DNA of 64,000 bases from Stomoxys calcitrans (Eukaryota; Arthropoda; Insecta; Diptera; Muscidae). Each line of letters starts with the position of its first letter. The stretch's first letter is position 1. The DNA lies in assembly GCF_963082655.1 (NCBI RefSeq), contig NC_081555.1, positions 94,194,914-94,258,913 of the forward strand. Reading direction: 5' to 3'. Below are positions 5,365 to 41,800 of the stretch, piece after piece. A model generated the notes under the pieces. That model was not told where the DNA came from. It searched no databases and worked only from the letters and a program-made list of their open reading frames with translations. The translations under genes were made by a program, and so were the position numbers.

Positions 5365-8300
5365 GTAAGTATTTATTTGTTGTTTTTGTTTTCTGTTCTC
5401 TGTTTCCAATAGTTCTTGTTATGGAGTTTTGCCTTGCCATTTTAGAATACAAAGATTGTGTAATAATCGACAAATGTTCAATGATAAATTTAACATTCTT
5501 AAGACATTAAAAGAGACACATACAATTAAGACTTAAGACCTTAAGCAGCAGAAAAATTTTTTAAAACAAAATTTAAATAAAACTTAAAAACAAATTGATA
5601 AAAATATTTATAATTTTAACAAAATTTTCTAAAGAAAATAAATTTTGGTCATTTTTATAGAATGGTGGCAAATGCTTGACATTGTATATATAGATTCAAT
5701 TTTTATAGAAATAAAATTAGTTTTGAGTTTTTTTTTGTTCCAAAAATTATTTAATTTTGTTGTTGTAATCTTGTCCAGCTTAGATCAATGGATTTTTTGT
5801 TTCTATTGTTTCTAGAAAAACAATAAAAAAAGTTTAAGCAAAATGTAGTGCGCAAAATGCATTGGGTCGGCTGCAGAGATCACAATTTCCGCCTTACCAA
5901 GGATCTCATCAGTTCGTAAGGCATGCTTCTACCATTGCACTGCTGTTTTAGTGGCAAAACAATCTGATGAGGCCCTTGATAAGGCCGAAATCGCGATCAC
6001 TGTAGGCTGCCCAAGGCATTTTGCATGCCAGATTTTGCTTAAACTTTCAAAAAGTTTTTATTAATTTCCTTTTCTATACTGGGTTAGGCTAGGTAAGAGT
6101 GGCAGTCCTTTACAGACTCACTTAGACAATTTTAAGTCCATTTTGATACCACAGTAGCGACAGACCAAGGCTTCTGGCGGGAATCGAACCCACGACCCCT
6201 GCACTGGTAATCCAAGCACGCTACCAACTCGGCTACTAATAAGAAACAAAAAAATCCATTAGTCTAAGCTGGTCGCAACGAACGAAATAAAATGTTGACA
6301 AAATTTTCCACAAAAATTAAAAATTGGGTCCAAGAACCCAAGGGGCAGCCCCAACCCCAAAGCTTCACCACACAGACATAATGGACGTTCATGTTGGTAT
6401 AGCAGTCTAATAAAAGATAATCGGGAGCAGATTGCGCATGTTGAGTAAAAAATGAGGTAAAAGTAATGGGGGGTCGTCCCATCCCAAAATAATATCCAAA
6501 TGGGCTTATTATGGTCATATGGGACTCAAATGAAAAGTATTTGGGAGTAAACTACAAAAATGACATTAACATTAGTGACTAAGTATATAGGTGGCACTTT
6601 AACTCCTAAATCTACTTCAAATAGGTTAATTGACATGACAATTTGGAATTCAAATAAAACGTATTTGAGAGTAGAAAACAAATCTGGGGGCGTATCCCCA
6701 AACATTGGTTACCAGAACAAGGAAGATGCCTTCTAGTTCCTACCGTTGAACCATCCAGATCGCTTGAAAAAGCCCAACAACTTACGAATGTTCACATCCG
6801 CTAAATCAGACATGTTCTCAAAGAAATGAGACCCTAAAGTACAACTCCTTCTGACTGCTGCTATGGGACACACACACAGGTGTTCTAAAGTCTCTTCTTC
6901 TTCGATGTCCTCACAACCTTTGCAAAAGTCGTTGCTGGCAACATTCAGTCTATCAGCATGTTTTCCGATTAGACAGTGACCTGTCAAGACGGGCACAATG
7001 ACTGAGACGTCTGTTCTATCCAATGACAGCAAAGCAGTAGACCTCTTCAAATCTAGATTAGGCCACATAGTTTATGAATGCTCACAGCCCCCTCTTTGTG
7101 ACTATCTATCATTCGTTGTCCTTCGGGCCTGGTCCTGAAAACTTAGCTTACATGTCGCTAGAGGCATACCCACAGATTCCAGTATCCTTGGAATTTGTAG
7201 GGTAGTTTTTAGTCACGCAAGCTCGTCCGCTTTACAACTCCCTGGGATATCTCTGTGGCCCGGCACCCAGAACAGGTGTACAGACATCTCGTTGAGAGAT
7301 CTGCGACAGTCGAGGGCTGTTTTTGTGTTCAGAAATACATTCTCCATGGATTTAATGGCTGCCTGGCTGTCTGAGAAGATATTAATGCCAATCGTCGTTA
7401 TGACATTATATCTTAGCCATTGTACCAAGGATAACACAGTGTCCGTAGCCGCCACATGACCAAAGAGAAAGCTCTATTAGCCTCACGGCAATTTGTCTAG
7501 CCACAATGTCCAGAGGCATAAGATGAAGCATTAAATTCAGTGCATCAGATGGTGTCGTCCTCAGTGCGGCTGTGATGCACAAACAACCCATCCTTTGGAT
7601 CCGGTTGACTATTAAACGGTAGGTGGACTTTTGAAGCGCCGTCCACCAGACGACAGCACTAACAACTGCAGTATATACCTAGTACATGGCGCGCGGTCTA
7701 AACCCCCACAAAATTTGGCCAATGGGTCTCTTGCAGGTGTTCTTGCCCTTTCCAAAATGTTGGAATTCCTGTCCAGCAAAACACCCATGTATTTTGCGCT
7801 TTCTGTAAATGGAACATTCTCTCCTCTCAAAGAGACAGATGTCGCTGTAGGTAACTTTTATTTCCTGCTCAACAGAATTACTTCTGTCTTGCATGGATTT
7901 ACGCTTAGACTACATTCGGTAGCCCACTTCGCTGTTGCACGTAGAGCTACCTGAAGTATATCTCTAAGATTGCTGGGAAACTTTCCCCTAACCGCAATAG
8001 TCACGTCATACGCATTTACACCTTTTTCTTCCAGACACAATAATATATTGTTAATGGGTATATTCCAAAGTAGCGGAGACATTACACCTCTTTGAGGTGT
8101 TTTTCTGCTGACTCATCTTTTTGGATCCACAGATCCCAAGCCTGCCGTAATGCATTTTTTAGTAAGTAAGTTATTAATAAACTTTCTTACGGTAGAGTTG
8201 ATGAATACTGCATATCTCGGTCACCATCAGCCTCATCCAATCTTCCAGTCGGTGGTTGAAATTTTCGGATTACATTTCCTTAGGCTTCCAAGAATGAATT

Positions 8301-20300: not shown

Positions 20301-23300
20301 ATCTATACTGTTTATAGACAGAGATAATCTTAATGGGGCAGCGCATCGTTAGTGTGACAACAAATAGCAGTCACCATTCCATGCATTAAAATCCACTCGA
20401 CCCCACTCAGAAAAGTCCAGCAAATCCTGACAGAGTGTATCGTCCATAATCCGCCTCTTATCCTCAATCTCTCAAAGACTCGTCCTAAGGTCGAATGAGT
20501 ACGAATGACATGTTCCGATTCGTTGTCTGACTCTGCAGAATGTTGATGAAAATAAGAAAAAGAGAAGGAGAAAGGACAGAGTCCTGTGGTACATCTGCGG
20601 TCAATTTATGCTCATTCGATGAGAACCCATCTATAACGACTCGTATAGTGGGATCTCTGAGTAAGCTCGAAATAAATCGAACAGACATTGGCGACACCAA
20701 ATGCTACAAGCTTTGATAGTAGTGCACCGTGCCAGACCCTATCAAATGCCTTGGAAATATCCAGAGCCACAACCTTAGTCTTACCAAACTGGTGGATTGA
20801 GGGACTCCAACGCTCCGACAGAAATGTCATGAGGTCGCCCATAGAGCGATTTCTGCGGAACCCATACTGTTTGTGGCTTAGAAGACCATTAGACTCTAAA
20901 TACCTCACAATATGGTGATTAACCATGCTCTTCATAACCTTGGAATGAGCGGAGCATATCGTAATTGACCGGTAATTCGCAGGGTTGTTCGCCTCACCCT
21001 TCTTGGGTAAACGTTCGCAACATCCACCACGCGGGGAAGACTCCCGCTCGGTAAGCAAGATTGAAAAGGTTGCGTAATGGACGAGCAAGCGTCGAAGAAC
21101 ATTTGCGCAAGACAAGTGTTGATATGCCATGCCGGCCTGAGGATTTATTTACGTCGGGATTCTCAAGAGTGCTTTTACCTCCATGAGTTCGAAAAAATAT
21201 CTGACGCATGACGCTAGATACATTTTCGATTAGAGGGAGTGGTTGATTGCTATCCGGCAGGGAAGAGTTCCCTGCAAATATATTAACCAACATGTTAGCC
21301 TTATTAACCAGGTCAGTGAACGTTTGATCATCCTTAACAAGATTTGGAATAGATGAAGAACTACCATTTGCCCTTCATGTAGAAGCAAGAACCTTAGTAC
21401 GTAGCACAGTGGGCCAAATGGCAAAAAAAGTGGAAATAAGTCTACAACTTTTTATCTGTTGATTTTAGCCATACAAAATGTTCTAGACATTTGTAGAGGA
21501 GGACATAGGCTTTCAGAAAAGTGCTGTTGTTGGTCCATATCTTTAATACAGGGTGAGCTACAGGGTGTCAAAGTTGACCACTTTTGACTTCTCCAAGCTT
21601 CTGGGGGCCATAACTTTTGATCTACTCAACCGATTTACATGATTTAGGACTCTAGAGAAAGAGCTTGACAAGATCTAAAAAACTTATGCATAAAGTACCA
21701 TGCCATCGTGTACTGTTAAGGAGTTATGAATTGTTTAATTTTAAAATATGAAAATTTGGCCTTGGTTTTTTTCAGTGTTTTTTAAATAACTCCGTCAATT
21801 TTAAAGCTATAAACTTCATACTTCACACAAATTATGCCAGCATATGTGTGCATAAAATACAAAAGGAATCACGTGAATATCTTTGGCGGTTTAAAAATGG
21901 CATCGTTTTCAATATGAAAAATATTTTTTTTGTCAAAAAATTGCAAAATTTTTCAAAAAAGATACTCCCATTTCCTTTAAGTTTTCGCAAACTTTGGCCG
22001 TCAAAGCATTATCATTTCTTTCCATTTTCACAAAGTCGAGGTATTAAGAAAAGTTTTAAGTGCTAATTTGGCTAATTTCGATATCAAACAACACCGTTAT
22101 CTTAAGACCAAAATGGCCAATTTTTTTACTAAACTTCAAAAGTTTCTCACTGGAAAAAAAGTTCCACGGGGATTTTTTCGCTTTTTTTGAACTTAAATGA
22201 AAGCTTAAAATGTTCCCAACATTTTAAGGTATGTCTCGCCATATCCTAGCCATAAATGAGATCGTAGCGATCAAAATACTGAAAAAAGTCAATTTTCAAG
22301 TAGTGCTATATTCATTGCTAAAAAACAAGTATTACGTCACATTTTATTGCAAAGATGTTAAATAAACTTTTATTTGGTAACACTTCTTCTACAAAACACA
22401 AAAAGAATCATGGAAATATCTCTATTCTATTCCATTTTATGGAACCGGCAATAAAAAAGTCAATTTTTCAAAAAAGTCGAATTTCCCAAATTTTGTTTTT
22501 GTTGTCCTAATTGCACATGACACACTATAGCCATATTTACGCAACATACCTTATCGTAAAGGAAATTTTCATACCTTTCCAACAATGTATAAAACATTTC
22601 TCAACTCGGATTCTATCTACTCTAAAATTCATTTACACTTCATTAAACTCTATATAAAAATGTCTATTTGTGAAATGGAACCTTATATGGGGCCTACACT
22701 AAAACATTGATAGATTTGCCCAGGGTTTACAATACAAATGTGTTAGAATAAAAAAAGGTCTCCTGCCAAAGTTTAAAAAAATTGGAATAAAAATATGTGT
22801 TTTAGAGCGAAAACACTTCGCATCGGCGTGCGTTTGTATAGTACCTACATCTATTTTTAATGTAAGCTGATGATTTTTGAATAAAAAGTAACCTAGAAAT
22901 ATACCTGCATATATATATATATTTGTGTTAAGATTTGATGCAGACAAATGTTACCTGTTTCGCTATGTCGAATTCCCAGGAAATCCACCGTATCAATGAA
23001 TGTGAAAAAACCTACCCATAAAAAATTCATTGTCATTTTTTTTTAACCAAATTCGAGTCCAGGTAAATAATTATAGAAGAGTAAGTAAAAAGAGGCACTT
23101 TGGACCCCTTTTTACGATTGCGTCTGATACCTGAAATGGGTCATTAATTGTGAATATATAGCATAAATATTTGAACAAAATCCAAATTTTCTTCATTATA
23201 TTTTGTAGAGGCGTAAAGGACATTTATAAGTTATGGAAGTCATACTGAAGTATTCCACTCTTTCGAAAATTGTATGGGACATCAAAAATGATTCCAAATC

Positions 23301-26300
23301 ATACACGGAGTCATTTAAGGAACTTGTTTACACTTTGGACCACATATATGGAATAAGGCTAAATAAAGACGCTTTAGACAAACTTGAAAAATTCTACAAA
23401 TCATTTGAGAGAAGGTTGCCAGAATGTTCATTCGCAAAAATCAAGTTTTTCAAAATGTATGAGAAGTGGCTGAAATCGGATCTACTTATTGAAATTAAAC
23501 CGCTGATTCCCGGCCGGCCTAGCAAAGCATACGACGAAGTTACGGAGAAAACCAAAAAGAAAAAACAAGAGGAACTATTGGCGGCACATCCGCCAAATTT
23601 AATAAAAGATACGTTCAAAACAGCATTGTTAAAAACACATCCAAAAAATGTTGGACGAATTGTCGATGTTTTACCATTAGCATCTCCGAAAAGGGTAAAG
23701 AGAATGGTAGAAAGTATTCCAACTCCAAAATCGACTACAGAATTCACGGAGGAAGATGCACTGGCCCTGATTTTGAACCTAGGCCTCTCAAGAAACAAAT
23801 ACTCAACAATGAGGAAGGCTCTTCGTGAAAAAGGATGGGGTTGTTTACCCTCAAAACATAAATTGTACAACACCAGGACGAAAATGGTGCCATCAAATAT
23901 ATACGTGGACGAAATAAAAGCAAGAGTGAAACTTGCTGATCTTGTTGAAAATACAGCTGTTAGAATTATTTCTAATTTTACTGAAGAACAGTTGAACACA
24001 TGTAATAATTCCGAAGTGGTTTTGATCAGCAAATGGGGTTGTGATGGATCATCTGGATTTTCCGAATATAAGCAACAAACAGAAATAGATACCAACTTCG
24101 CATCAATTTTCATGGCATCATTAGTACCATTGAGAATGAGATTGTACAAGGACCAATCTTCATCATCGAAAGAAAATGCATTTCAAGATATATGGATAAA
24201 TAGAACACCTGGGTCAAAATATTTATGTCGCCCAATTCGGTTTGAGTATACAAAGGAAGACCGGAACACAACACGATCTTTGGTGAACGAAATAAAGGAA
24301 GAAATTGCTGCATTACCCATGATTGTTATAAACCAATTGGGAAGAAATATAAAAGTTTCGTTTCAACTACAACTCACTATGATCGATGGAAAGGTGGCAA
24401 ACGCATTAACTGGCGTTATGTCCAATTGGAGATGCAATATTTGTGGCAAGAAGAATGGGCAATTCGAGGACAAGTCTGATGAAAATTTAGTAAACGAAAA
24501 TGCGCTCAATTTCGGTATTTCGCCCCTGCACTGTAGAATTCGATTCATGGAGTATTGTTTGCATTTATCGTATGACCTTAAATATCGGACTAGCCCTGGA
24601 AACCGCGATGTCTCTGCTAGAAACAACCAAGATCTTCACAAAATGAGGCAGGAAGAGAAGAATCGAATCCAGTTGGAGTTTAAACAAAAGGGACTTATAA
24701 TAGATAAACCTCTTTACGGATACGGAAGCACAAATGATGGCAACTCGGCAAGGCGGTTTTTTGAGGACCCCGTATCGACATCTAAAATAACCGGTCTTGA
24801 TGAACACTTGCTAAGACGATTCAAAGTGATTTTGGCTGTAATCAATAGCAAAAAGATGATAAATTCAACCAAATTTGAAGCTTATAGTAATGACACAAAA
24901 AACATTTTATCTGATTTATATTCGTGGAAAGCTTTAACACCGACAGTACATAAAGTCTTACATCATGGCAAGGAAATTGTGGAATACAACATACTTCCGT
25001 TAGGAGAACTTACAGAAGAAGCTCAGGAATCCCGTAATAGAGATGTTAAACAGTTCCGGCTTTTCAATACCCGAAAGAGCACCAAATTTAACGAAAATTA
25101 TGATTTACTTCAATATTTATTGTTATCGTCTGATCCGGTACTATACAGCATCAGAACTAAATGGCTACCAAAAATATGTGACGATATAGATAAGGACGAT
25201 CCCGATGCCATTCAAATTAAAGAGCTTTTAAATTTTGATACCTTAGATTATTTGGTAGAGAATAAAATCAAATAATACAAAACTAAAATGCTTTTTTATT
25301 TTGGGAGTAGCTAATATACATATAAACGCACGCCGATGCGAAGTGTTTTCGCTCTAAAACACATATTTTTATTCCAATTTTTTTAAACTTTGGCAGGAGA
25401 CCTTTTTTTATTCTAACACATTTGTATTGTAAACCCTGGGCAAATCTATCAATGTTTTAGTGTAGGCCCCATATAAGGTTCCATTTCACAAATAGACATT
25501 TTTATATAGAGTTTAATGAAGTGTAAATGAATTTTAGAGTAGATAGAATCCGAGTTGAGAAATGTTTTATACATTGTTGGAAAGGTATGAAAATTTCCTT
25601 TACGATAAGGTATGTTGCGTAAATATGGCTATAGTGTGTCATGTGCAATTAGGACAACAAAAACAAAATTTGGGAAATTCGACTTTTTTGAAAAATTGAC
25701 TTTTTTATTGCCGGTTCCATAAAATGGAATAGAATAGAGATATTTCCATGATTCTTTTTGTGTTTTGTAGAAGAAGTGTTACCAAATAAAAGTTTATTTA
25801 ACATCTTTGCAATAAAATGTGACGTAATACTTGTTTTTTAGCAATGAATATAGCACTACTTGAAAATTGACTTTTTTCAGTATTTTGATCGCTACGATCT
25901 CATTTATGGCTAGGATATGGCGAGACATACCTTAAAATGTTGGGAACATTTTAAGCTTTCATTTAAGTTCAAAAAAAGCGAAAAAATCCCCGTGGAACTT
26001 TTTTTCCAGTGAGAAACTTTTGAAGTTTAGTAAAAAAATTGGCCATTTTGGTCTTAAGATAACGGTGTTGTTTGATATCGAAATTAGCCAAATTAGCACT
26101 TAAAACTTTTCTTAATACCTCGACTTTGTGAAAATGGAAAGAAATGATAATGCTTTGACGGCCAAAGTTTGCGAAAACTTAAAGGAAATGGGAGTATCTT
26201 TTTTGAAAAATTTTGCAATTTTTTGACAAAAAAAATATTTTTCATATTGAAAACGATGCCATTTTTAAACCGCCAAAGATATTCACGTGATTCCTTTTGT

Positions 26301-29056
26301 ATTTTATGCACACATATGCTGGCATAATTTGTGTGAAGTATGAAGTTTATAGCTTTAAAATTGACGGAGTTATTTAAAAAACACTGAAAAAAACCAAGGC
26401 CAAATTTTCATATTTTAAAATTAAACAATTCATAACTCCTTAACAGTACACGATGGCATGGTACTTTATGCATAAGTTTTTTAGATCTTGTCAAGCTCTT
26501 TCTCTAGAGTCCTAAATCATGTAAATCGGTTGAGTAGATCAAAAGTTATGGCCCCCAGAAGCTTGGAGAAGTCAAAAGTGGTCAACTTTGACACCCTGTA
26601 GCTCACCCTGTATTAAAGATATGGACCAACAACAGCACTTTTCTGAAAGCCTATGTCCTCCTCTACAAATGTCTAGAACATTTTGTATGGCTAAAATCAA
26701 CAGATAAAAAGTTGTAGACTTATTTCCAATTTTTTTGCCATTTGGCCCACTGTGCGTAGGCGCTGTTCGTAAAGAAATTTTTTGCGCCTAAGCACATTGG
26801 CACTCGAAGATCTTGCCTGTTTGCGCAGTAGTTCAGTATTGGCATTTTTATCCAAGCGCTAGTTCTTGAATGCCACCTCTTTTGATCTTCCGGTATCTCT
26901 GCATGTCTGGTTAAACCAACTTTTGTAGTCTAATTTAACCGTTATAGTCTTAACTGGAACTTATGTCCTTATTCCCTTTAAAATTATCTTCTCAATAATT
27001 TCAGCAGTAGCATTTAAATCATCACCTTGAAAACATAGTTTCCAGAATCCATGGAAATAATCCATTAAGCTCATTCCAAAGTGCTTTTTCGTACCTTCTT
27101 GGGTATTGACCACTTCGGGACTGGGGAAGAAGCAGAACGAAGAACAGAATACGACAAAGATGCTAAAATAATGCAGTGATCGGAGTTACCAAGAGGTGCA
27201 AGAATATTTACTTCATACATTTCAGGGAGTAAAATTAAGAAAAGATCAAAAGTATTATTTTGGCGCCCTTGGACACATATTCGTCTGTTCGTTCACTAGT
27301 TGCGCTAAACCATTGTGCGCAGCGAAAAGCTCCACGTATTGGCCCTCAGGAGTCGTACGGCTCGAATGGGAAAGCCAGGAGGAGTTGTGGACATTGAAAT
27401 CCCCAGCGACAACGATTTCACAGCCCGGAAAATCCTCCAAAATATTTGTAATGGAATCAGAAAGGGCGTCAAACCCGTTTATGGGAGCCTTCCTTTCTGA
27501 GTTTTGACTTATGTACTGAAATCCGAAGTGATTTAACTGAAAGGAAGTTAAATTCAGAATCCTGCGAGCCCAGGTGTTGTCGTCTTTGGCAAAATACATC
27601 ATTATGTACATATACCACGAGGTCTTTGTGGGAAATAAAAAGGAACAGGGTGTGGTACCCAGGGATGTGAAAATCCTGTGGATCAGAATCCTCACAAACC
27701 TTTTGAGGAGGATTCTTACCCTCAGGATTAGAGCTAGAAATTTGCCCTCAGTCTCGTATATTGGATGAATGTATTTTAAAGCCACCCATCATTTAGGTAA
27801 CCAAAAGAAAAAGAGAACAAAAGCAAACATAATAAAGAAAACATAATAAAGAAAACAAATTCGGAAGCTACATTAGGTTATGGACATACCATAATTCAAG
27901 GAAAAAGTCGGCTTAAATATCGCTTTCCAGATTCACACAAAGTGAAATTGGGAGATCAGTTTATAAAAGAGCTATAAAAAATTACAGACCGGCGTAGGCG
28001 GTCACTCTCGAACCTGAAATAAAGGATGGTAGAACCTCACTTACTTTTGTCGACTTAACTATGACTAACCCGAAGATGGTGATATGGCTTTTTGAGGATC
28101 AACGGAGCACAATTCTTATCAATTACTCTAAAAACTCATCATTGTCGACTTAACTATGACTAACCCGAAGAGATGCCCCATGTTATTGAACTGTCAATAT
28201 ATTTTTATTGTCCATCCATCCGTGGACAAAGTTACGAATGCCATCAGTGGCGCCAAGTCATCCAAGATGGTGATATGGCTTCTTGAGGATCAACGGAGCA
28301 CAATTCTTATCAATTAAAATCGAATATTCTTCTTTTGTTTGTTATTACAGAATTAAACTACCAAAGTATCTGGTACGCCTTATGTGGATATTGAGTTGCA
28401 TTATGGCTATTGGTTCAATGTTCTCATTGGGACGTTTCTATGCAGCACCCTTTACAAACATCGAAAGCACTCTGTATGGTGGTTTCCACAAATTATGCTG
28501 GAATTTGGCAATCGGTTGGCTAGTATTGGCAGTTACTACGGGACATAGTGGATGGGTTCGACGAATGTTAAGCAGTCGATTTTTCGTACCATTCTCGCGT
28601 CTAACATATTGTGCATATCTATGTAATGGTACAGTAGAGTTATACAATACATCTAGCATAAGGATTGCAGAACATACAGGATATTTGGAAATGGTGAGTT
28701 CAAGAATTTGAATTGCTTTTGTTTAAAACACCGTCTCTTGTGTTTTAAACAAAAGCAATTCAAGATAACAGGAAATTCATAAAAATTCATAATGTTTATG
28801 AAATGAAATATGAAGCTATGAATGTTTAAATACTCCAATTTTTTTCATTTCTTTTTTTCAGGCCAATGCCATGACCGCTCACACCTTGAACACATTCACA
28901 TTGGGTTTCTTGTTATGTTTGGTCTTCGAATCACCTTTACACGCTCTGGAACGCATTTTCATGCGCCAGTTCAATAGCCGAGATACTAGCAAAAAGTCCA
29001 GTAAAGGCAGTTCATCAGATGAATCGCCATCCACATCGGAGGAACAAGTACCATAG
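5201..29056 (+). CDS. Gene A: NRF-6-like acyltransferase-3 family membrane protein (5' incomplete, 8 exons)
   Basis: Joined exons are 5201-5364, 9462-9613, 13557-13711, 17807-18139, 18206-18399, 18474-18599, 28351-28693 and 28862-29056. They total 1662 nt, giving 553 residues and a TAG stop. Every junction is GT-AG and the phases (2,1,0,0,2,2,0) keep one open frame. The product starts in the end of the cysteine-rich NRF ectodomain (GECVPAVCGG). It then has the acyltransferase-3 membrane region: NGIKALAMVFILFGH with the conserved GH, VDIYLLLSGYL, GRYIRLTP, QSWYLSADTQLFFVAP, and a serine-rich cytoplasmic tail. NRF-6 family proteins are multi-pass membrane proteins with a presumed acyl-transfer function; worm NRF-6 affects lipid and drug uptake, and the substrate here is unknown. 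The signal peptide and first NRF exons are not in the window. Gene B downstream is its paralogue. The family call is secure; no fly orthologue name is assigned. Confidence 0.88.
5822..6066. repeat. Short foldback element (MITE-like), about 245 bp
   Basis: Imperfect palindrome: AGTTTAAGCAAAATGTAGTG on the left pairs with AGATTTTGCTTAAACT on the right, and CACAATTTCCGCCTTACCAA pairs with TTGATAAGGCCGAAATCG. Inner end near 5910-5960. No coding capacity. It lies in a gene A intron. Confidence 0.6.
6079..6238 (-). mobile_element. SINE-C: tRNA-derived SINE with LINE1-type 3' tail
   Basis: On minus it starts AGTAGCCGAGTTGGTAGCG, with a perfect A box (TAGCCGAGTTGG, complement of 6224-6235) and a perfect B box (GGTTCGATTCC, complement of 6180-6190). 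The 3' part reads GTCTAAGTGAGTCTG and ends in TAGCCTAACCC, closely matching the end of LINE1 copy d (54840-54906). It is not a functional tRNA gene: no acceptor stem closes and the tail is LINE-like. Confidence 0.8.
6250..6712 (+). repeat. TTTGAGTCCCATATTG-family repeat fragment
   Basis: It contains TTATTATGGTCATATGGGAC and TCAAATGAAAAGTATTTGGG blocks in the inverse orientation to 1-2682. No exon. Confidence 0.55.
6713..9160 (-). mobile_element. LINE1 copy a, degenerate non-LTR retrotransposon
   Basis: Minus-strand fragments, 5' to 3', are: an ORF1-like piece (8300-9119), RT (7858-8082, MSPLLWNIPINNILLCLEEK), RNase H (7213-7455, INIFSDSQAAIKS and WVPGHRDIPGSCKADELA), and a Cys/His-bearing C-terminal domain (6733-7068, CKGCEDIEEEETLEHLCVCP). 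The YADD catalytic box is damaged (NAYDV). An internal deletion joins ORF1 directly to distal RT near 8280. The terminal GTTAGGTTAGG tail is missing. It lies in a gene A intron. Confidence 0.8.
9462..9613 (+). CDS. Gene A exon: first transmembrane helix after the NRF domain
   Basis: The acceptor is TTTTTTCACAG and the donor GTAAGT; 152 nt. The split codon GC|A restores alanine. It encodes the hydrophobic helix LAFFIFLTILSTAYHLYL followed by a polar linker (TMKDNNTRNIALLSFSII), the usual join between the NRF domain and the acyltransferase-3 core. The corresponding gene B exon carries a long acidic insertion that is absent here. Confidence 0.85.
9881..10133 (-). mobile_element. SINE-A copy 1 (tRNA-derived SINE)
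   Basis: On minus it begins GGCCACCGTAGCGCAGAGGT (A-box region) and has the B-box-like GGATTCGAATCC (complement at 10097-10108). The conserved body includes CTCTCCAAAGAGGTGTCGCA, and the 3' end is rich in AAATTTGCA in other copies. It lies in a gene A intron. Confidence 0.75.
10134..12367 (+). mobile_element. LINE2 copy a, degenerate non-LTR retrotransposon
   Basis: RT fragments at 10474-10830 include VVFIPKTGKASYATPKAYRP and ISLTSFLLKTMEHIVD. A later RT piece is at 11129-11311 (GLNVNPEKTETYFITRKR), and RNase H at 11537-12043 with THFWIDGTLVLPSGRSSYTE. The region before 10474 resembles an ORF1 remnant. No intact YADD box is visible. The 3' end is interrupted by LINE1 copy b and resumes at 13025-13136. 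Confidence 0.78.
12368..13024 (-). mobile_element. LINE1 copy b, 3' fragment inserted in LINE2 copy a
   Basis: It begins with the tail CAGGTTAGGTTAGGATTAAG on + and reads on minus through the C-terminal domain (CRSCEDIEEEETIELLLCVC) and the end of RNase H. LINE2 sequence runs up to 12367 and resumes at about 13025 (ACAATTAAGGATTTTG), so this copy is nested in it. Confidence 0.78.
13025..13440 (+). mobile_element. LINE2 3' ends: tail of copy a and a second truncated copy b
   Basis: Two successive LINE2 tails are present. One ends GTATGTCCATAGTAGCGTGG at about 13150. The other spans 13150-13440 with the C-terminal frame 13129-13332 (CQCPAFSAKRHRYLGGDTIP). Both share the box GAGCGCAC followed by the conserved 3' end. 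Confidence 0.7.
13557..13711 (+). CDS. Gene A exon: acyltransferase-3 start with conserved GH motif
   Basis: The acceptor TTTTTAG joins G|AA (glutamate) in frame; the donor is GTAAAT; 155 nt. It encodes ENTKKLFQPSRDQSGLKPLN and then GIKALAMVFILFGHAATF. The G-[IM]-[RK]-x-L-[SA]-M...GH pattern is the signature opening helix of acyltransferase-3 proteins, and the histidine is the expected active-site residue. Confidence 0.87.
14236..14712 (-). mobile_element. LINE2-type fragment: linker and start of reverse transcriptase
   Basis: The minus-strand frame gives FMVKEALRCFKPLKSNGSDK and IFPAMLQKEADYLAPHLACI, matching VKEALRSFKPFKSLGPDE of LINE2 copy a, with the upstream linker. An adjacent SINE-A at 14713 extends this frame artificially to 254 codons. 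Confidence 0.75.
14713..14998 (+). mobile_element. SINE-A copy 2, 5' truncated
   Basis: It carries B box GGTTCGAATCC at 14736-14746 and the full body to GGGCAAAATTTGCAATTTGC. The A-box end is missing. It abuts a LINE2 fragment. Confidence 0.75.
15000..15765 (+). mobile_element. Non-autonomous DNA element with CAGTGTTGCC end, copy 1
   Basis: About 770 bp related, in inverse orientation, to 18830-19618. It ends GGGACCTACCAAAAACGGCAACACTG. Its left end is cut by SINE-A copy 2. There is no coding potential. The terminus resembles hAT-type elements of flies, but the superfamily is an inference. Confidence 0.5.
15768..16330 (-). mobile_element. LINE2 fragments (possible 5' piece plus 3' tail copy c)
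   Basis: 16120-16330 is a clear LINE2 tail on minus (GGTTCATGTCTGGTATCTTG, and GCGCTCTAAAAACTAAGATG). 15768-16120 keeps LINE-like frames without a clear domain and is assigned only by adjacency. Confidence 0.55.
16445..17158 (+). mobile_element. SINE-B second copy, split by SINE-A copy 3
   Basis: 16445-16700 and 17018-17158 together (about 390 bp) match the element at 58442-58833 in the opposite orientation, sharing TTGCGGACAATCAGCGGTAT-like and AATAAGCAATGGCTACC-like blocks. It ends before ACAACAACAT. Confidence 0.65.
16701..17017 (-). mobile_element. SINE-A copy 3 inserted in SINE-B
   Basis: A full-length minus copy flanked by the 8-bp repeat GGCGAGTT (16693-16700 and 17018-17025). The A-box region TTAGCGCAGAGGTTAG is near its upper end. 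It splits a SINE-B element. Confidence 0.75.
17159..17806. other. Intronic sequence before gene A exon 4
   Basis: Unique AT-rich DNA; only short frames. The polypyrimidine tract and acceptor lie at the end. Nothing else recognised. Confidence 0.5.
17807..18139 (+). CDS. Gene A exon: acyltransferase-3 core helices
   Basis: The acceptor is TTCTTGCAG and the donor GTAAGG; 333 nt, phase 0 at both ends. It encodes VDIYLLLSGYLFFRLVIVEL, then GRYIRLTPAYMVVIGFYMTW, and a loop with DRCLQSWWLNILYVNNYIN. The SGYL and RYxRLTP motifs are characteristic of NRF-6 type acyltransferase-3 proteins. Confidence 0.9.
18206..18399 (+). CDS. Gene A exon: WYLSADTQ membrane segment
   Basis: 194 nt, phase 0 in and phase 2 out, with donor GTGAGT. 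It encodes CMFQSWYLSADTQLFFVAP and two hydrophobic helices. The W-Y-L-x-x-D-x-Q motif is diagnostic of the family. The gene B counterpart (55812-56005) has the same length and phase, which supports tandem duplication. The preceding intron is only 66 nt. Confidence 0.9.
18474..18599 (+). CDS. Gene A exon: loop and helix (HMRASAYFIGLAVGYLAH)
   Basis: 126 nt between TTTTAG and donor GTAAGC. The split arginine codon AG|G joins in frame. It encodes YYHDNYIKTHMRASAYFIGL and the rest of a membrane helix. In gene B this sequence and the next exon form a single 466-nt exon. Confidence 0.88.
18830..19618 (-). mobile_element. Non-autonomous DNA element with CAGTGTTGCC end, copy 2
   Basis: Reverse-oriented relative of 15000-15765. 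Its start on minus is CAGTGTTGCCATTCAAGAAA, the inverse of GGCAACACTG ending copy 1. The two together define a short terminal inverted repeat. It is truncated at 18830. Confidence 0.5.
19960..20146 (-). mobile_element. LINE2 3' tail fragment (copy d) inside LINE3 copy a
   Basis: The sequence GCGCTCTAAAAACTAAAATG and the GGTTCATGTCTGGTATCTT box match the reverse complement of the 3' end of LINE2 copies at 13025-13440 and 46080-46235. It begins with GTTAGGTTAG repeats, the LINE tail. Confidence 0.7.
21400..21404. repeat. 5-bp target site duplication CGTAG (left)
   Basis: CGTAG precedes the element's first base and recurs at 26755-26759 directly after its last base. Removing the element plus one copy restores a continuous LINE3 reading frame. 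Confidence 0.9.
21405..22835 (+). repeat. Left terminal inverted repeat of Transib (1431 bp)
   Basis: It matches 25324-26754 in reverse orientation over the same length. The only difference I noticed by eye is at 21430 (G here, T in the opposite arm). Identity ends at GCGTGCGTTT. It contains no convincing gene; a 73-codon frame at 21848-22066 is duplicated simply because the repeat is. Confidence 0.92.
22836..23232 (+). promoter_or_regulatory. Transib 5' leader and probable promoter region
   Basis: This 397-bp unique stretch lies between the left inverted repeat and the transposase ATG. It holds an (AT)n run at about 22909-22922 and several in-frame stops. No defined promoter motif is certain; its position makes it the likely start region of the transposase transcript. 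Confidence 0.35.
23233..25275 (+). CDS. Transib transposase (RAG1-like DDE recombinase), intact
   Basis: 680 residues without a break, starting at ATG in AGTTATGGA just after the left inverted repeat and ending TAA before the right one. Visible landmarks are WGCDGSSGFSEYKQ (candidate catalytic D271), LTMIDGKVANALTG (D385), a CNIC zinc pair (C401, C404), FGISPLHCRIRF (H433), GSTNDGNSARRFF (499-510), TVHKVLHHG (H573, H577, H578, candidate zinc ligands) and LTEEAQESRNRD (E599). The spacing and motifs match the D-D-E core shared by Transib and RAG1. The basic N-terminal half (KTKKKKQEE around 106-114) may bind DNA. The length is normal for the family. Expected reaction: nick and hairpin-type cleavage at CACAGTG ends, then insertion with 5-bp duplications. 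AATAAA at 25261-25266, overlapping the last codons, may be the polyadenylation signal. Confidence 0.9.
   Translation: MEVILKYSTLSKIVWDIKNDSKSYTESFKELVYTLDHIYGIRLNKDALDKLEKFYKSFERRLPECSFAKIKFFKMYEKWLKSDLLIEIKPLIPGRPSKAYDEVTEKTKKKKQEELLAAHPPNLIKDTFKTALLKTHPKNVGRIVDVLPLASPKRVKRMVESIPTPKSTTEFTEEDALALILNLGLSRNKYSTMRKALREKGWGCLPSKHKLYNTRTKMVPSNIYVDEIKARVKLADLVENTAVRIISNFTEEQLNTCNNSEVVLISKWGCDGSSGFSEYKQQTEIDTNFASIFMASLVPLRMRLYKDQSSSSKENAFQDIWINRTPGSKYLCRPIRFEYTKEDRNTTRSLVNEIKEEIAALPMIVINQLGRNIKVSFQLQLTMIDGKVANALTGVMSNWRCNICGKKNGQFEDKSDENLVNENALNFGISPLHCRIRFMEYCLHLSYDLKYRTSPGNRDVSARNNQDLHKMRQEEKNRIQLEFKQKGLIIDKPLYGYGSTNDGNSARRFFEDPVSTSKITGLDEHLLRRFKVILAVINSKKMINSTKFEAYSNDTKNILSDLYSWKALTPTVHKVLHHGKEIVEYNILPLGELTEEAQESRNRDVKQFRLFNTRKSTKFNENYDLLQYLLLSSDPVLYSIRTKWLPKICDDIDKDDPDAIQIKELLNFDTLDYLVENKIK
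25324..26754 (-). repeat. Right terminal inverted repeat of Transib (1431 bp)
   Basis: Reverse complement of the left arm, beginning just 48 nt after the transposase stop codon. It ends CCCACTGTG, the inverted heptamer, directly against the duplicated CGTAG. Confidence 0.92.
26755..26759. repeat. 5-bp target site duplication CGTAG (right)
   Basis: Second copy of the duplication made on Transib insertion. The LINE3 sequence resumes here. Confidence 0.9.
26755..27785 (-). mobile_element. LINE3 copy a, endonuclease part (other side of Transib)
   Basis: On the minus strand the protein contains CEIVVAGDFNVHNSSWLSHS, the GDFNxHxxxW motif of APE-type endonucleases, followed by a linker. Across the reconstructed empty site the linker reads KKFLYEQRLRTKVLAS, continuous from here to 21404, with one stop shortly after. 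This proves that the Transib landed in a LINE3 copy. Confidence 0.82.
28045..28320. repeat. Direct repeats before gene A exon 7
   Basis: A block of about 55 bp, GATGGTGATATGGCTTTTTG onward, occurs at about 28075-28127 and again at 28264-28318. TGTCGACTTAACTATGACTA also occurs twice (28047 and 28143). These are local duplications in the intron close to the splice acceptor. Confidence 0.65.
28351..28693 (+). CDS. Gene A exon: distal membrane helices
   Basis: 343 nt after a 9751-nt intron that holds LINE3 and the Transib element. The acceptor is TTATTACAG and the donor GTGAGT, joining AG|A (arginine). It encodes several helices including LMWILSCIMAIGSMFSLGRF and WLVLAVTTGHSGWVRRMLSS, ending in PFSRLTYCAYLCNGTVELYN, typical of the family C-terminal half. 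Confidence 0.88.
28709..28762. repeat. Perfect 23-bp hairpin with 8-nt loop in gene A last intron
   Basis: TGAATTGCTTTTGTTTAAAA... (28709-28731) is exactly complementary to 28740-28762, with loop CGTCTCTT. It lies 15 nt after the 5' splice site of a 168-nt intron. Confidence 0.8.
28862..29056 (+). CDS. Gene A last exon: final helix and serine-rich tail
   Basis: 195 nt from TTTTTTTCAG to the TAG at 29054-29056. It encodes the last helix (TLNTFTLGFLLCLVFESPLH), then ALERIFMRQF and a hydrophilic tail rich in Ser, Lys and Glu that is probably cytoplasmic. The FESPLHALER block matches the family end motif. Confidence 0.88.
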   Translation, partial: ANAMTAHTLNTFTLGFLLCLVFESPLHALERIFMRQFNSRDTSKKSSKGSSSDESPSTSEEQVP

Positions 29057-34798: not shown

Positions 34799-35831
34799 AT
34801 GTCCCGGGGATCAACAACGAAATGCAGAAAATGGGCAACATTTTTGGTGATTTTATTGATGATTCTATCATTTTTACCACCCTCACAAGAGTTTTCCTTT
34901 GGTTGGGGTGGTGATGAGGAAGGCAAATCCAAAGAAGCAGCCTCCACTTCTTCAGGGCGAGAGGCACGTAAGACGCCAAAGCGTCATGTGGTGGAGAAAA
35001 AGCATAAATTTCATAAAATCGAACGCATCATAATAGAAGACGACGAAGACGAGGGCGATGAAGAAGCTGAAGATAATGAAAACACCAACGAATATGGTGG
35101 TGGCGGCGGTGATTCTGCCAACGTAGAGGACACTGGCGACAACCATGCTGGCGAGGAAATGGACGACGCCGATGATGCCACTAATGAAGACCAAGAGCGG
35201 GCCGCCTCTATAAACAGTGCCAACAATGATGACGAAGAGGAGGAGTTTCGTTTCAAAAGAGCCCGCAAGGCAGAAAAAGTGGCACGCTCTTCTAAGAAAG
35301 CTGCTGCGGCCAGTGCTGAAAGTCAAGAAAAGTCACAATCTTGGTTCTCCTTTTCGTTTTTCGGTTCTTCCCAAAAGGACAGTGCCACCAGCCAGCAGGA
35401 AGAGGAATCAGCTGAGGCTGCCACACCCAAATCAAATGGTATTATCGATTGGATTTTATGGCTGGGTGAACGGACGGGACGTTTAAGACCTGATTCTACA
35501 GAAGATACGTCGGCCCAAGAAGCAACTGAAGCAAGTGGTGAAACCTGGTTTGATTATTTCAATCGTTGGCCCTTCAATAGCCTCTTTCCCATTGGGAAAC
35601 CACCAAAACCCATAAAAATGCCTAAAGTAGCTAAGAAATCCAGCAGGGATGTTTCCAAAGCCGATGAAGGTTCAGAGGAACCCCCCATGAGCCAAGAATC
35701 ATTTGACAGTTTACTCTACAGTCTACCAAATTTCATTATCAAAGTTCAAGATGCACCAGATGCCGAATGCCGCGAACAATTGCAAATATTTCAGAGACAA
35801 TTGAGGGGTCGTAAATTGTGGACATTACAGA
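34799..35831 (+). CDS. Gene B exon 1: signal peptide, acidic region, start of NRF domain
   Basis: 1033 nt, ending in phase 1 before GTAAGT. Residues 13-27 form a hydrophobic signal core. Residues 77-150 are dominated by Asp and Glu (IIIEDDEDEGDEEAEDNEN begins the stretch), with a Gly run near 100-104. Basic RFKRARKAEK follows at about 151-160, a plausible proprotein cleavage area by inference. The exon ends with ECREQLQIFQRQLRGRKLWT, the opening of the NRF domain. Confidence 0.88.
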
Positions 35832-38800
35832 GTAAGTTTTTGTTATACATGGCAAGTCCTTAATTTTCTCAATTTTTACACTTGTTGAGCCTGTTAGTAG
35901 TTATAGACAACAGCAAAAGTCCTGTGTATTTTTCTAGAAGCGTTTTTTCTATATCGAGAAATATTTTTCTCCAAAACTCTGGCGAACAATAATTTCCAAA
36001 ATAAGTTGATCTCTACAAAAACACATGCGTTGGAAGAGAACAGCTAGTGGAAAAGATGTGCGTGCTAGTGTCGTGCTTGCATCGTAGACACGTTTTCGCA
36101 ATATATTCGATATAAGTACGACATACTAGGGATCTAAAAGTCGACTAACGCAGAGGTTAGCATGTCCGCTGAACGCCTTCGAACCCTGGCGAGACCATCA
36201 GGAAAAATTTTCAGCGGTGGTTTTACCCTCCTTATGCTGGCAACATTTGTGAGGTACTTTGCCGTGTAAAAACTTCTCTCGAAAGAGGTGTTGCACTGCG
36301 GCACGCCGTTCGGACTCGGCTTTAAAAAGGAGGCCCCTTAATATTGAGCTTAAACTTGAATCGGACTGCACTCATGGATATGTGAGAAGTTTGCCCCTGC
36401 TCCTTAGTAGAATGTTCAGGGGCAAAATTTGCATTTTGTGTAAAAAAAGTCGAAAAAAGAAGTCGGAAAATACGAATCAATACGATTTTTGCCGCCGACT
36501 GCTTCGACTATTTTTTTAGTTATGGTTGCAATAGGTACAAACGTGATCTTTATAGGAAAACAATACCAAAAATAACTCGAAATGGAGTATTATGGAAAGT
36601 AAAAAAACCAAAACCCCAAAAACGCCACCCAAAATCAAAAGTGGATTTATCGGGCCAATATTGGTATGAAATTAAAGGCATTGAAGAGTAGAACACGAAT
36701 ATGAAATGAATACTTGTACCCATGGATGGAAAATAGCATAAACATCAAGTCCATTAATTGGACTTGATTTGTATGACCCCACCTGCAAAAATCCCTCCAA
36801 ATGGGCATATTAGTCGATAATGACTATATCAGGACTCAAATGAAATGTAATTGGTAGTAGGATACGAATATGACATTAAAATTTTTATCCAATTATCTTC
36901 TTTTCAATCAAACAACACGCAGGGGATGTCCCCTATAAATGCAGTGCATTGCGTTGGCAAATAAAAATTAGGAATTGGAGGGAGAGAAAAGGATGTAGTG
37001 TTTATTAACATTTGTCTCAAACCTCTGGATGTCATAGAGAGTGGGAAAAACATTAGCCGAACGGTTGGGGCGAAATAAGAATTCTCTCTATAATTCATTG
37101 TTCGGTCCGCTGGCCAATCAATTACAAACGTGTGTGAGTTCCCGGAATGTCTAGTATCTCTGACAAACATCCTTACATCAGGAATAAGAAGACGAATATT
37201 AGACGAACACCCACCATGAAAGTACCAATAGAACAGCGCCAAACAAACCACATTGCGACGATGTTCAAGGGCGGCAATAGAGTTGGATACCCTACTGACC
37301 CCAATCAACGCCATCACTCTCCTCCGTACACGGTCCAGTAGCTCCAGTCATGATTTTAAAGCTTCATCCCATACATGTGAGTTGTACGCCATTTTAGGCC
37401 TTATGAAAGCGGTATTAATATTAAGAAGATTAGAAGGAGAGAAGTAATTCTTACGCCGTTTAAGGAAGCCTAAGCACTTCAACGCTTTTTTCGACACTTC
37501 AAACACATGTTTAGCCAAACGGATATCACTTTGTATTTTCATGCCCAGAACATCAAGAGCTTCTGATTGCTCAACATCTATACCGTTGATAGACAAAAAT
37601 GGGTCAGCGAATCGTTTGTGTGACACCAAACAGCACTGAGTCTCCGTTCATTAAAATCTACCTGATTCATTCGACTCCACACAGAAATAGCCAGCAAATC
37701 CTGGCAGAGGGTATTGTCCATAACCTACCTCTTGTCTTCAATCTCTCGACGACTTGAGAACGAATGACAGAGATTAATGTCATTCGAAAAAGAGTAGATC
37801 AGATTCGATGTCTGACTCAACGGATCGTTGATGAAAATAAGAAAAAGAGAAGGAGAAAGGACAGAGCCCAGGGGTACAGCTGCTGTCAATTTATGCTCAT
37901 TGGATGAGAACCTATATATAACGACTCGTATAGTAAGATCTCTGAGAAAGCTCGAAATAAATCGAACGAAGCCATTATCGACACCAAATGCGACAAACTT
38001 TGATAGAAGTGCACCGTGCCAGACCCTATCAAATGCCTTGGAGACATCCAGAGCCACAACCTTACTCTCACCAAACTGGTAGATTGAGCGACTCCAACGT
38101 TCCGACAGAAATGCCATGACGTAGCCCGTAGAGCAATTTCTGCGGAATCCATACTGTTGGTCGCTAAGAAGGCCATAAGAATCTAAATACCTCATAAGAT
38201 GGTGATTAACCATGCTCTCGATAACCTTGGAGAGAGCATTTCGCAATTGGCCAGTAATTCGCAGGATTGTTCGCTTCCAAGCCTAGGTGGCGCTTTACCT
38301 CCTAAAAACACCTCAAAGCCATAATTGTGGCCAAATGTTTGGGAGTCCCATAACACCCCTAAACGGTACATATTTAACGACAATGGCAATATGGGCCTTA
38401 ATTAAATGTGTTTGGGAGTAGAGCACGCATTTGATATCTATTGGGTTGCCCAAAAAGTAATTGTCGGTAATATATTGGGTTGCCCAAAAAGTAATTGCGG
38501 ATTTTTCATATAGTCGGCGTTGACAAATTTTTTCAACGGCTTGTGACTCTGTAATTGCATTCTTTCTTCTGTCAGTTATCAGCTGTTACTTTAAGCTTGT
38601 TTTAGAAAAAAGTGCGCGAAATTTTGTTTACATTTTTTGGTTTGGAGTCAATTTTAATATGGAGCCCCCAAAGGAGTATTTTCGTCTTATTTTACTTTAT
38701 TATTTCCGTAAAGGAAAAAACGCGGAGCAGGTTGCTAAAAAGTTACGAGATGTGTATGGTAATAAAGCCTTAAAAGGAAGACAGTGTCAAAATTGGTTTC

Positions 38801-41800
38801 GCAAATTCCGTTCTGGAGATTTTTCACTTAAAGATGAGCCACGTTCAGGTCGGCCAAATGAAGTTGATGATGACCAAATCAAAGCATTAATCGAATTGGA
38901 TCGTCATGTAACTGAGCGTGAGATAGGAGAGAAGTTAAATATACCAAAATCAACCGTTCATTATCACATAAAAAGTCTTGGACTGGTGAAAAAGCTTGAT
39001 ATTTGGGTACCACACAGAAATTCATTTAAAAAACCGAATCAACGCTTTTGATATGCACCTTAAACGCAATGAATTCGATCCGTTTTTAAAACGAATCATA
39101 ACTGGAGATGAAAAATGGATTGTTTACAACAACGTTAGTCGAAAACGATCATGGTCCAAGCATGGTGAACCAGCTCAAACCACTTCAAATCATGACAATA
39201 TGGGACTCAAATGAAAGGTATTAAACAAGAACTTTGGAAACCCACCAACTCAGGTATATACGTATGTTGATGATGATAAATGCATTATTTATGAACCCAT
39301 AGCCATTTCGAAATATGATCCCATTTGGACCAAACTCGGCACGGACGTCAAGTGGTCTAATAAATACAATTCACAGTTCAAGTTAGTAAAATAGAATACG
39401 AGTATTGGTCTTTATGGCAGCTAAAGCCAAATATACACCGATCTTAGCCATATATAGCACGGATGTCGAAAAGCGTACCATAGGCCACTGTGCAAAATTT
39501 CAGCACGATCGGGTAATAAACGCTGTCTTTATGTGCCCAAGGACTAAAATCGGGATATCGGTGTATATGGCAGCCATAAGTGTAGATAGTCCTATGAGGG
39601 GGAGAGGGGGGCTCAGACCATCAGAAAAATGTTAACCCCAATTTTAACCGATATTGACTTTTGAAGAACCTGGGGAATGCAATTTCTATCTGAGGTGAAA
39701 TTAATGTAGTTCCAAGAACATAATAAATTCATAGTGGGGGTCAATCAATTTCGGAAATGGTATAACTTACGCACGCTATACGTCCAAATAATATGTAAAT
39801 CTATTTTCAAATAATAGATTAGGTTAGGTTTAAGTGGCAGTCTGCCATCAGACTCACTTAGACGTTTTCGTCCATTGTGATACCACAGGAACAGAAGAAG
39901 GAAGATGCCTTCTTGTTCCTACCGTTTAACCATCCAGATCTCTTTAAAAAGCCCAGTAACTTGCGAATGTTCACATCCGCTAAATCACACAGGTTCTCAA
40001 AGAAATGAGAACCTAAAGTGGAACTCCTTCTGACTACTAGTGCGGAACACACACACAGAAGGTGTTCTATAGTCTCTTCTTTTTCAACGTCTTCACAGCT
40101 TCTGCAAAATTCGTTACTGGCAACCTTCAGTCTGTCAGCATGGAACCATCCGTATAGAAGTCTATATAACTTCTGTTACCAAGAACATCGTTGTTCCAAT
40201 CGGTTCTATCAAGAATAGTGGTACAGTACTTTTTATCAGGTACAGTGTAATCCACACTGCCTGGAACATCGGATATTGTATGAAGGATAACACAGTGTCC
40301 GTAGCCGCCACATGACCAATGAGAAAGCTCCCTTAACCTCACGGCAGTGGTCGCTGCAATTTGGCTAGCCACAACGTCCAGAGGCATAAGATGCAGCGTT
40401 AAATTCAGTGCAACAGATGGTGTCGTCCTCAGTACGGCTGTGATGTACACACAAGCCACCCTTTGGATCCGGTTAAGTATTGAGCAGTAGGCGGACTTTG
40501 AAGCGCCGTCCACAAGACCACAGCACCATATAGCATTATTGGTCTGACAACTGCAGTATATATACAAGAGTTGTCTTTCTTGCCCTTTCCAAAATGTTGG
40601 ATTTGAAGTTCAATTTCCTGTCCAGCAAAACACTCAGGTATTTTGCGCTTTCAGTAAATGGAACATTCTCTCTTCCAAGGAGAGAGTTGCCACTGTAGGC
40701 AACTTGTATCTCCTGCTGAAAAGAACTACTTCCGTCTTGCACGCATTTATACCTAGACCACTTTCGGTAGCCCACTTTGCTGTTGCACGTAGAACTTCCT
40801 GAAGTATATCTCTTAAAGTGCTGGGAAACTTTCCCCTAACCGCAATTGCCACGTCATCAGCATACGCGACGACTTTTACGCCTTTTTCTTCCAGAGACAA
40901 TAATATATTGTTAATGGCTATATTCCAAAGTAGAGAAGACATTACACCTCCTTGAGGAGTTCCTCTGCTGACCCATCTTTCTAGATCCACAGATCCCAAG
41001 GCTGCCGTAATTCATCTTTTAGTACGTAAGTTATTAATAAACTTTCTTACGGTAGAGTTGATGCCTCGAAACTCCAATTCCTTCACGATTGACGTCGGTT
41101 TTACATTATTGAAAGCAACTTTAATGTCAAGAAATGCTACTATTGTATATTCCTTGAGAGCAAAAGAACCCTCTATGTTGCCGACTAGGTCGTGAGGGGC
41201 TGTTTCAGTTGATGTGCCCTACTACGAGTACATGCATGCTGCTGCCGCGACAGGCAATCTCCAGGGATCTTTGCCCTAAGATATCAAACTCTCAAGTGTC
41301 TTCAGCATAAAAGATAACAGACAAATAGGACGAAAATCTTTCGTGTGGTAAGGTTTTTCCTGCTTTCGAAATGAAAATTACCTTCGTGTCCCTCCATCCC
41401 ACAGGTATATATGACATTCTGATACAAGCAGAGTATATCTCCCTAAGCCAGGGAACCAGTCTATCGAACACAGCTTGTAATTCAACCGGTGATACATCAG
41501 GGCCTGGCGACTTAAAGGTGTCGAAACTTCTTATCGCCTAAAGGATTTTCGTCTCAGACACAATTTCCCTAATAAACTCCGACGAATGTATTCCAGTGAC
41601 AACCTCTTCTGGCGCCACGTTGTCCGTTGGAGAATTTTCCAGGAAATGTGTATCAACGAGTAGTTCTAGTGTTTCCCCACTAGACATTATCCATACATTC
41701 TCCGACTTCTGCATATACCCCACCCCATACCGAGCTACAAAATTACGCCAGGATTTGTTCTTTCTCAGCTCGCCCTCATATTTTCTTAGCTATTACTTAA

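Follow-up and report, generated by a model that had tools for sequence, protein, structure and literature searches.

An intact and probably autonomous Transib transposon with 1,431-bp terminal inverted repeats in Stomoxys calcitrans

The origin of V(D)J recombination is modeled on the transposases of Transib elements, and the terminal inverted repeats (TIRs) of several of these elements have been reported. For transib1-4 of Drosophila melanogaster, TIRs of 43, 42, 45, and 40 bp and element sizes of 2,167–2,883 bp are listed (PMC10299278, Table 1), Transib miniature inverted-repeat transposable elements (MITEs) of Helicoverpa armigera have TIRs of 13–27 bp (PMC7764229, Table 2), and a TIR of 13 bp is given for the starfish element TransibSU (PMC4411706). 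A report of 2007 attributes “long TIRs” to HzTransib and gives their length in a figure (PMC1852546), so that long ends in Transib may have a precedent. In the open-licence literature of PubMed Central, no paper on “long terminal inverted repeats” in Transib was found, a search that did not include Repbase, which may well describe such an element. Outside of Transib, TIRs of 18 to 1,250 bp have been reported for Galileo of the P superfamily, where they lengthen when one end receives a copy of the sequence that adjoins the TIR of the opposite end (PMC3573991). Here we analyze a 64-kb stretch of the genome of Stomoxys calcitrans (contig NC_081555.1, in the following “the window”), which contains a DNA transposon of 5,350 bp at positions 21405–26754. 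We are fairly confident in reading it, from its sequence, as a complete and probably autonomous Transib cut-and-paste transposon that inserted recently and the TIRs of which have grown to 1,431 bp. Transib as a type of element is already known; what makes this one interesting is the great length of its ends and their near identity. A preliminary description of this DNA had stated that Transib TIRs usually comprise tens of base pairs; the Drosophila figures agree with this statement, the “long TIRs” of HzTransib may not.

The element and the duplicated target site are composed of the following features:

21400–21404, no strand: left target-site duplication CGTAG (5-bp match to 26755–26759)
21405–22835, plus strand: left TIR, 1,431 bp (1,430 of 1,431 positions match the reverse complement of 25324–26754)
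21405–21411, plus strand: left terminus CACAGTG (read from the sequence)
22836–23232, plus strand: unique 397-bp leader from the left arm to the ATG (arm alignment)
23233–25275, plus strand: Transib transposase, 680 amino acids, one exon, intact (open reading frame, profile, residues, fold)
25261–25266, plus strand: AATAAA overlapping the last codons (motif scan)
25276–25323, plus strand: unique 48-bp 3′ spacer from the stop codon to the right arm (arm alignment)
25324–26754, minus strand: right TIR, 1,431 bp (arm alignment)
26755–26759, no strand: right target-site duplication CGTAG (5-bp match to 21400–21404)

As assembled, the locus does contain an intact gene between 1.43-kb TIRs that are nearly the same in sequence. 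The preliminary description had given the exact boundaries and the equal length of the two arms, and it had judged them nearly identical by eye. An ungapped alignment of the left arm with the reverse complement of the right arm bears this out, with the sole difference at arm position 26 (G left, T right). A gapped alignment adds nine columns (1,437 of 1,440 identical, one gap), one base on the outside and a few on the inside. Past these columns similarity stops: the following 400 bp on the two inner sides reach a best local score of 13, which is also the highest score among 50 shuffles (mean 9.6). Together the arms make up 2,862 of the 5,350 bp, and their GC content is 32%, compared to 35% in the core. 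Of the 81 repeat pairs listed for the window, none but the arms exceeds 93% identity.

Within the arm only two weak tandem arrays are present (10 bp × 3 and 17 bp × 2.2), and direct repeats do not exceed 18 nt apart from one 29-nt pair at 83%. The two arm halves align with a score of 360.5, compared to a mean of 381 in 30 shuffles, and thus show no excess likeness. Three possible origins of the arms were considered and rejected. A long internal duplication was seen neither in the repeat scan nor in the comparison of the halves, coding DNA is represented by a 104-amino-acid stop-to-stop stretch that has no Pfam match, and a nested pair of short elements lacks a Transib terminus at the inner ends.

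The transposase gene is unbroken, as had been noted before: the open reading frame (ORF) at 23233–25275 on the plus strand has 680 codons and no internal stop. Residues D271, D385, and E599 align with D126, D225, and E436 of HzTransib, the aspartate-aspartate-glutamate (DDE) triad, and in an alignment of 50 proteins D271 and E599 are invariant and D385 is conserved in at least 90%. The columns of C401, C404, H573, and H578 are invariant in the same alignment, and the C(2)C and H(3-4)H motif reported between the second D and the E in Transib (PMC12730594) is present in the protein. The sequence profile scores are 608.7 bits for HzTransib versus 67.6 for RAG1L. The structures of HzTransib (PDB 6pqn/6pqx) match with 35–36% identity over the structurally aligned part, and a common fold is predicted for the transposase, HzTransib, and RAG1/RAG1L, a statement limited to the protein beyond the N-terminal ~165 amino acids, which the structural matches barely reach. 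Its sequence, its catalytic residues, and its predicted fold firmly assign the protein as a Transib transposase, with RAG1 and ProtoRAG far more distant than HzTransib, in line with the earlier designation as a RAG1 relative of the Transib type. The N-terminal residues 1–165 (23233–23727), which lie outside of the solved HzTransib chain, contain a nearly invariant G94 in a GRP motif; a weak profile alignment of this part with the GGRPR stretch of RAG1 (3–5 bits) is not significant.

It is extremely improbable that the element is a ProtoRAG or RAG-like element instead of a Transib. The common fold and the CACAGTG end would suit such an element, and the RAG1 Pfam model reaches 24.3 bits, slightly below its cut-off of 25; however, the difference in profile scores speaks against it, and so does the gene content. 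Apart from the transposase, the element contains only one ORF of at least 150 amino acids starting with ATG, which is antisense to the transposase. A RAG2-like gene was not seen among three of the seven other stop-free stretches of more than 80 codons (one of them covered partly), which have no Pfam match, a scan that did not extend to intron-split genes. Within this scope, a single gene and no RAG2 were seen in the element, as is the case for Transib.

A total of 184 homologs were found, and the figures on relatives are based on the best 120 of the 184. Among the matches listed, one cluster is 100% identical to the transposase and is found on three contigs, the longest of 3,780 bp. The next near-full-length relatives among these matches (678–736 amino acids) are 54–58% identical, and shorter ones are 61–66% identical over 81–86% of the protein. 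A tree was calculated from 110 rows: the window protein, four references, and, of the remaining 119 listed relatives, the 105 that have at least 560 amino acids (14 shorter ones were dropped). The window protein groups with the 66% relative (SH-aLRT, an approximate likelihood ratio test, 98), and it lies within a set of nine proteins with a support of 100, which includes a protein of Eumeta japonica. The tree, which had been proposed earlier as a check, places the protein inside the Transibs, though the outgroup, at which the root was set, consists of partial RAG1/RAG1L rows, two of three of which fill 34–35% of the columns, and carries a long-branch warning. The tree serves to show the closest relatives within Transib, whereas the independent test of Transib versus RAG1 is given by the profile scores and not by the tree. 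The relatives are known as proteins alone, not by their element ends. In prokaryote genome contigs and viral contigs, pattern searches yielded 45, 34, and 24 matches, none of which was confirmed as a relative, and a tblastn search with 130 proteins and the element masked revealed no other Transib remnants in the window at E 0.01.

Both outer ends open with CACAGTGGGCCAAATGGC, the first seven letters of which, CACAGTG, are those of the consensus heptamer of recombination signal sequences (RSS). An A-run occupies arm positions 19–25 on both ends, starting 11 bases past the heptamer. Because the heptamer and the spacing of the A-run match on both sides, the ends are symmetric, with CAC termini of the RSS-heptamer type on each. 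The consensus of the RSS nonamer is ACAAAAACC, and the best match to it, with the A-run as a candidate nonamer, comprises six of nine positions, at spacers of 9 and 11, compared to four to five of nine at spacers of 20–22; these are raw counts. Symmetric Transib TIRs are reported to have 20–22-bp spacers (PMC8355894). The window contains seven other CACAGTG sites, none of which continues like the arm end, GGGCCAAATGG. A direct repeat of CGTAG adjoins both outer ends, and the match is no longer than 5 bp; a target-site duplication of this length is as found for Transib. The sequence also fits CNNNG, the target-site duplication given for the H. armigera MITEs (PMC7764229). However, GCTCG of HzTransib departs from CNNNG, and therefore the letters are no test of Transib membership.

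The element lies within a decayed non-long terminal repeat (non-LTR) retrotransposon, two parts of which flank it:

20612–21404, minus strand: reverse-transcriptase part of the decayed non-LTR retrotransposon (RVT_1)
26760–27596, minus strand: endonuclease part of the decayed non-LTR retrotransposon (Exo_endo_phos_2)

RVT_1 scores 52.4 bits on 20612–21130, and a piece of the reverse-transcriptase part taken by itself gives 45.7 bits. Exo_endo_phos_2 scores 32.6 bits versus a cut-off of 27.4 on residues 33–106 of a piece of the endonuclease part, at about 27500–27279. Along the minus-strand retrotransposon the order is endonuclease, Transib insertion, reverse transcriptase. This domain order together with the duplication makes it very likely that both arms are true transposon ends that arrived in one insertion. 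A single insertion into an older, decaying element is very likely, which counts against a composite or rearranged copy and against a falsely assembled arm. An extension of the arms within the element after insertion would leave the duplication and the flanks unchanged and may have taken place. When the element and one CGTAG are removed, the frame that runs from the endonuclease through the linker into the first part of the reverse transcriptase continues on a codon boundary. It is free of stops for 42 codons only at the junction, in a retrotransposon copy with stops on both sides and frameshifts, and a different minus-strand frame is open for more than 100 codons over the same junction; the open frame was dropped as a proof of clean insertion, because the other frame stays open longer. 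No second retrotransposon copy that spans the insertion junction was found in the window. The segment 20147–20995 of the retrotransposon has an 81% identical relative at 37422–38277.

It could be argued that the assembly has produced the arms, either by falsely copying one arm in inverted orientation or by merging both to a consensus. Assemblers can mis-resolve exact 1.4-kb repeats, and one difference per 1,431 is very low. However, the same 5-bp duplication is found at both outer junctions, within parts of one retrotransposon, the two arms are told apart by position 26 and by the sequences that flank them on the inside, and a false arm would need to end exactly at CACAGTG beside the duplication. 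We consider such an artefact very unlikely.

The preliminary description had proposed either a recent insertion or gene conversion between the arms, and the single difference in 1,431 positions agrees with both. The divergence is 0.07%, with a two-sided Poisson 95% upper limit of 0.39%. The Drosophila mutation rate is 2.8e-9 per site and generation, and at this rate the arms would be ~125,000 generations old, with an upper limit of ~700,000. With conversion from arm to arm, the true age of the element would exceed its apparent age.

Mobilization is expected to proceed as follows, by analogy to HzTransib and RAG1. The DDE transposase would bind each arm within its outermost tens of bases, comprising CACAGTG and the following bases, and cleavage at the arm ends would free the element, leaving a hairpin on the flanking DNA, as described for cleavage of the HzTransib type (PMC6941560). 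A 5-bp stagger in joining the freed element to its target would yield the CGTAG duplication. The other ~1.4 kb of each arm are probably dispensable for catalysis. Most likely the arms arose through repair of a break or gap, in which sequence neighboring one end was the template for the opposite end, similar to Galileo, and their identity would be due to a recent origin or to arm-to-arm conversion. The duplication and the flanks agree with cut-and-paste mobility, and the target is an ordinary one on either side; activity of the element is inferred.

The new Transib subfamily that the preliminary description had suggested is, with one locus as evidence, an unproven proposal. The long arms might characterize a Transib family, all or most copies of which have kilobase arms that are homogenized by arm conversion. 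The equal arm lengths with sharp inner ends, the intact gene between the arms, and the report of “long TIRs” for HzTransib (PMC1852546) favor such a family; however, a single copy was examined, and the nearest relatives are known as proteins alone. We give this possibility an even chance. The long arms might also be confined to this copy, a short-TIR Transib in which repair duplicated 1.4 kb of one end at the opposite end, shortly before, during, or after the insertion. A very recent duplication fits the near-perfect identity, and in Galileo such events happen copy by copy (PMC3573991). Yet, a gain of the arms ahead of the insertion would mean that the long-arm form has transposed at least once, because the duplication lies outside of both arms. 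A restriction to this copy is conceivable, though we rather doubt it.

A TATATA run is found at 22910–22921, 74 bases into the core from the left arm, and AATAAA lies 57 bases ahead of the right arm. As a guess from these motifs, the former might be a promoter and the latter might serve for polyadenylation ahead of the right arm. A leader and a poly(A) signal of its own between the arms may keep the transposase mRNA free of a 1.4-kb hairpin, a suggestion only, and read-through from outside would form double-stranded RNA (dsRNA), as described for Tc1 (PMC3878927). A scan for bacterial promoters and terminators was set aside as unsuited to a eukaryote. Speculatively, a Transib family might have turned into a foldback transposon, with non-repetitive kilobase TIRs kept identical by conversion, an intact transposase gene and its signals between the arms, a hairpin-free mRNA, and read-through dsRNA that leads to self-limiting RNA interference; the ends are symmetric, with the heptamer and the A-run 11 bases on at both sides, and show no difference of the 12/23 type. 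Taken as a whole, this scenario is unlikely.

Several points weigh against a complete, recently inserted Transib with grown TIRs. The evidence comes from a single locus and one copy, and an assembler that merged reads of both arms could inflate the arm identity, so that it is possible that the identity has been raised in this way. The origin of the arms is based on analogy, as the relatives are known as proteins and the comparison includes no short-TIR relative at the DNA level, and the parallel to Galileo is imperfect, because the copies with the longest TIRs described in that report are never near-complete (PMC3573991). The promoter and poly(A) motifs are short, AT-rich, and common in DNA with 35% GC, and TATA-type hexamers also occur inside the arm (22651 and 22653) and at 23155.

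If the proposed reading is true, the RAG1-related superfamily would gain an intact, probably active insect element that breaks the pattern of short TIRs. It would permit tests of the end length that a Transib transposase needs, of the making and upkeep of kilobase TIRs, and of self-silencing by long TIRs. Its value is modest until copies are counted, the evidence being one locus.

Diverged repeats lie densely in the window, and several of them are inverted, e.g., 40141–41426 with 52379–53683 and 7420–8203 with 63134–63928. A stretch of 544 bp at 2676–3219 matches its own reverse complement at 81% and forms an imperfect long palindrome. At 34799–35863 on the plus strand, an ORF of 354 amino acids has a hydrophobic, signal-like start, ten homologs at 32–64% identity, none of them named, and no Pfam family above the cut-off; it is probably a host gene. 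An ORF of 163 amino acids at 54925–55416 on the plus strand looks like a fragment of a mariner/Tc1-type transposase, judging by the motif WFQQDGATCHTA, and has no Pfam match at E 0.01.

In comparison with transib1-4 of D. melanogaster, with which it shares Transib by name, the TIRs of the S. calcitrans element are ~30 times longer and the element is about twice the size, a comparison of lengths and not of sequences. The short TIRs usual in Drosophila Transibs are not found here, with 1,431 bp versus 40–45 bp (PMC10299278), and the arms had rightly been called exceptionally long. Nevertheless, Transib membership is firm on the defining features tested, short TIRs being typical and not defining. 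HzTransib of Helicoverpa zea is smaller (3,518 versus 5,350 bp), its deduced ORF is shorter (489 versus 680 amino acids), and its target-site duplication differs (GCTCG versus CGTAG) (PMC1852546). Sequence similarity to ProtoRAG/RAGL and RAG1 is far weaker than to HzTransib, and in place of the convergent RAG1L-RAG2L pair of ProtoRAG/RAGL one gene was seen, with three of seven minor stretches scanned. Of the features of Foldback-type elements, very long TIRs are present, while internally repetitive TIRs are not, the arms holding short repeats only. Galileo and Foldback-type elements of Drosophila likewise have kilobase TIRs flanking a central region (PMC3573991, PMC2775673). The Galileo copies reported with the longest TIRs are without a gene (PMC3573991), in contrast to the intact gene found here, and by analogy Galileo seems to be the best parallel for the long arms of this Transib.
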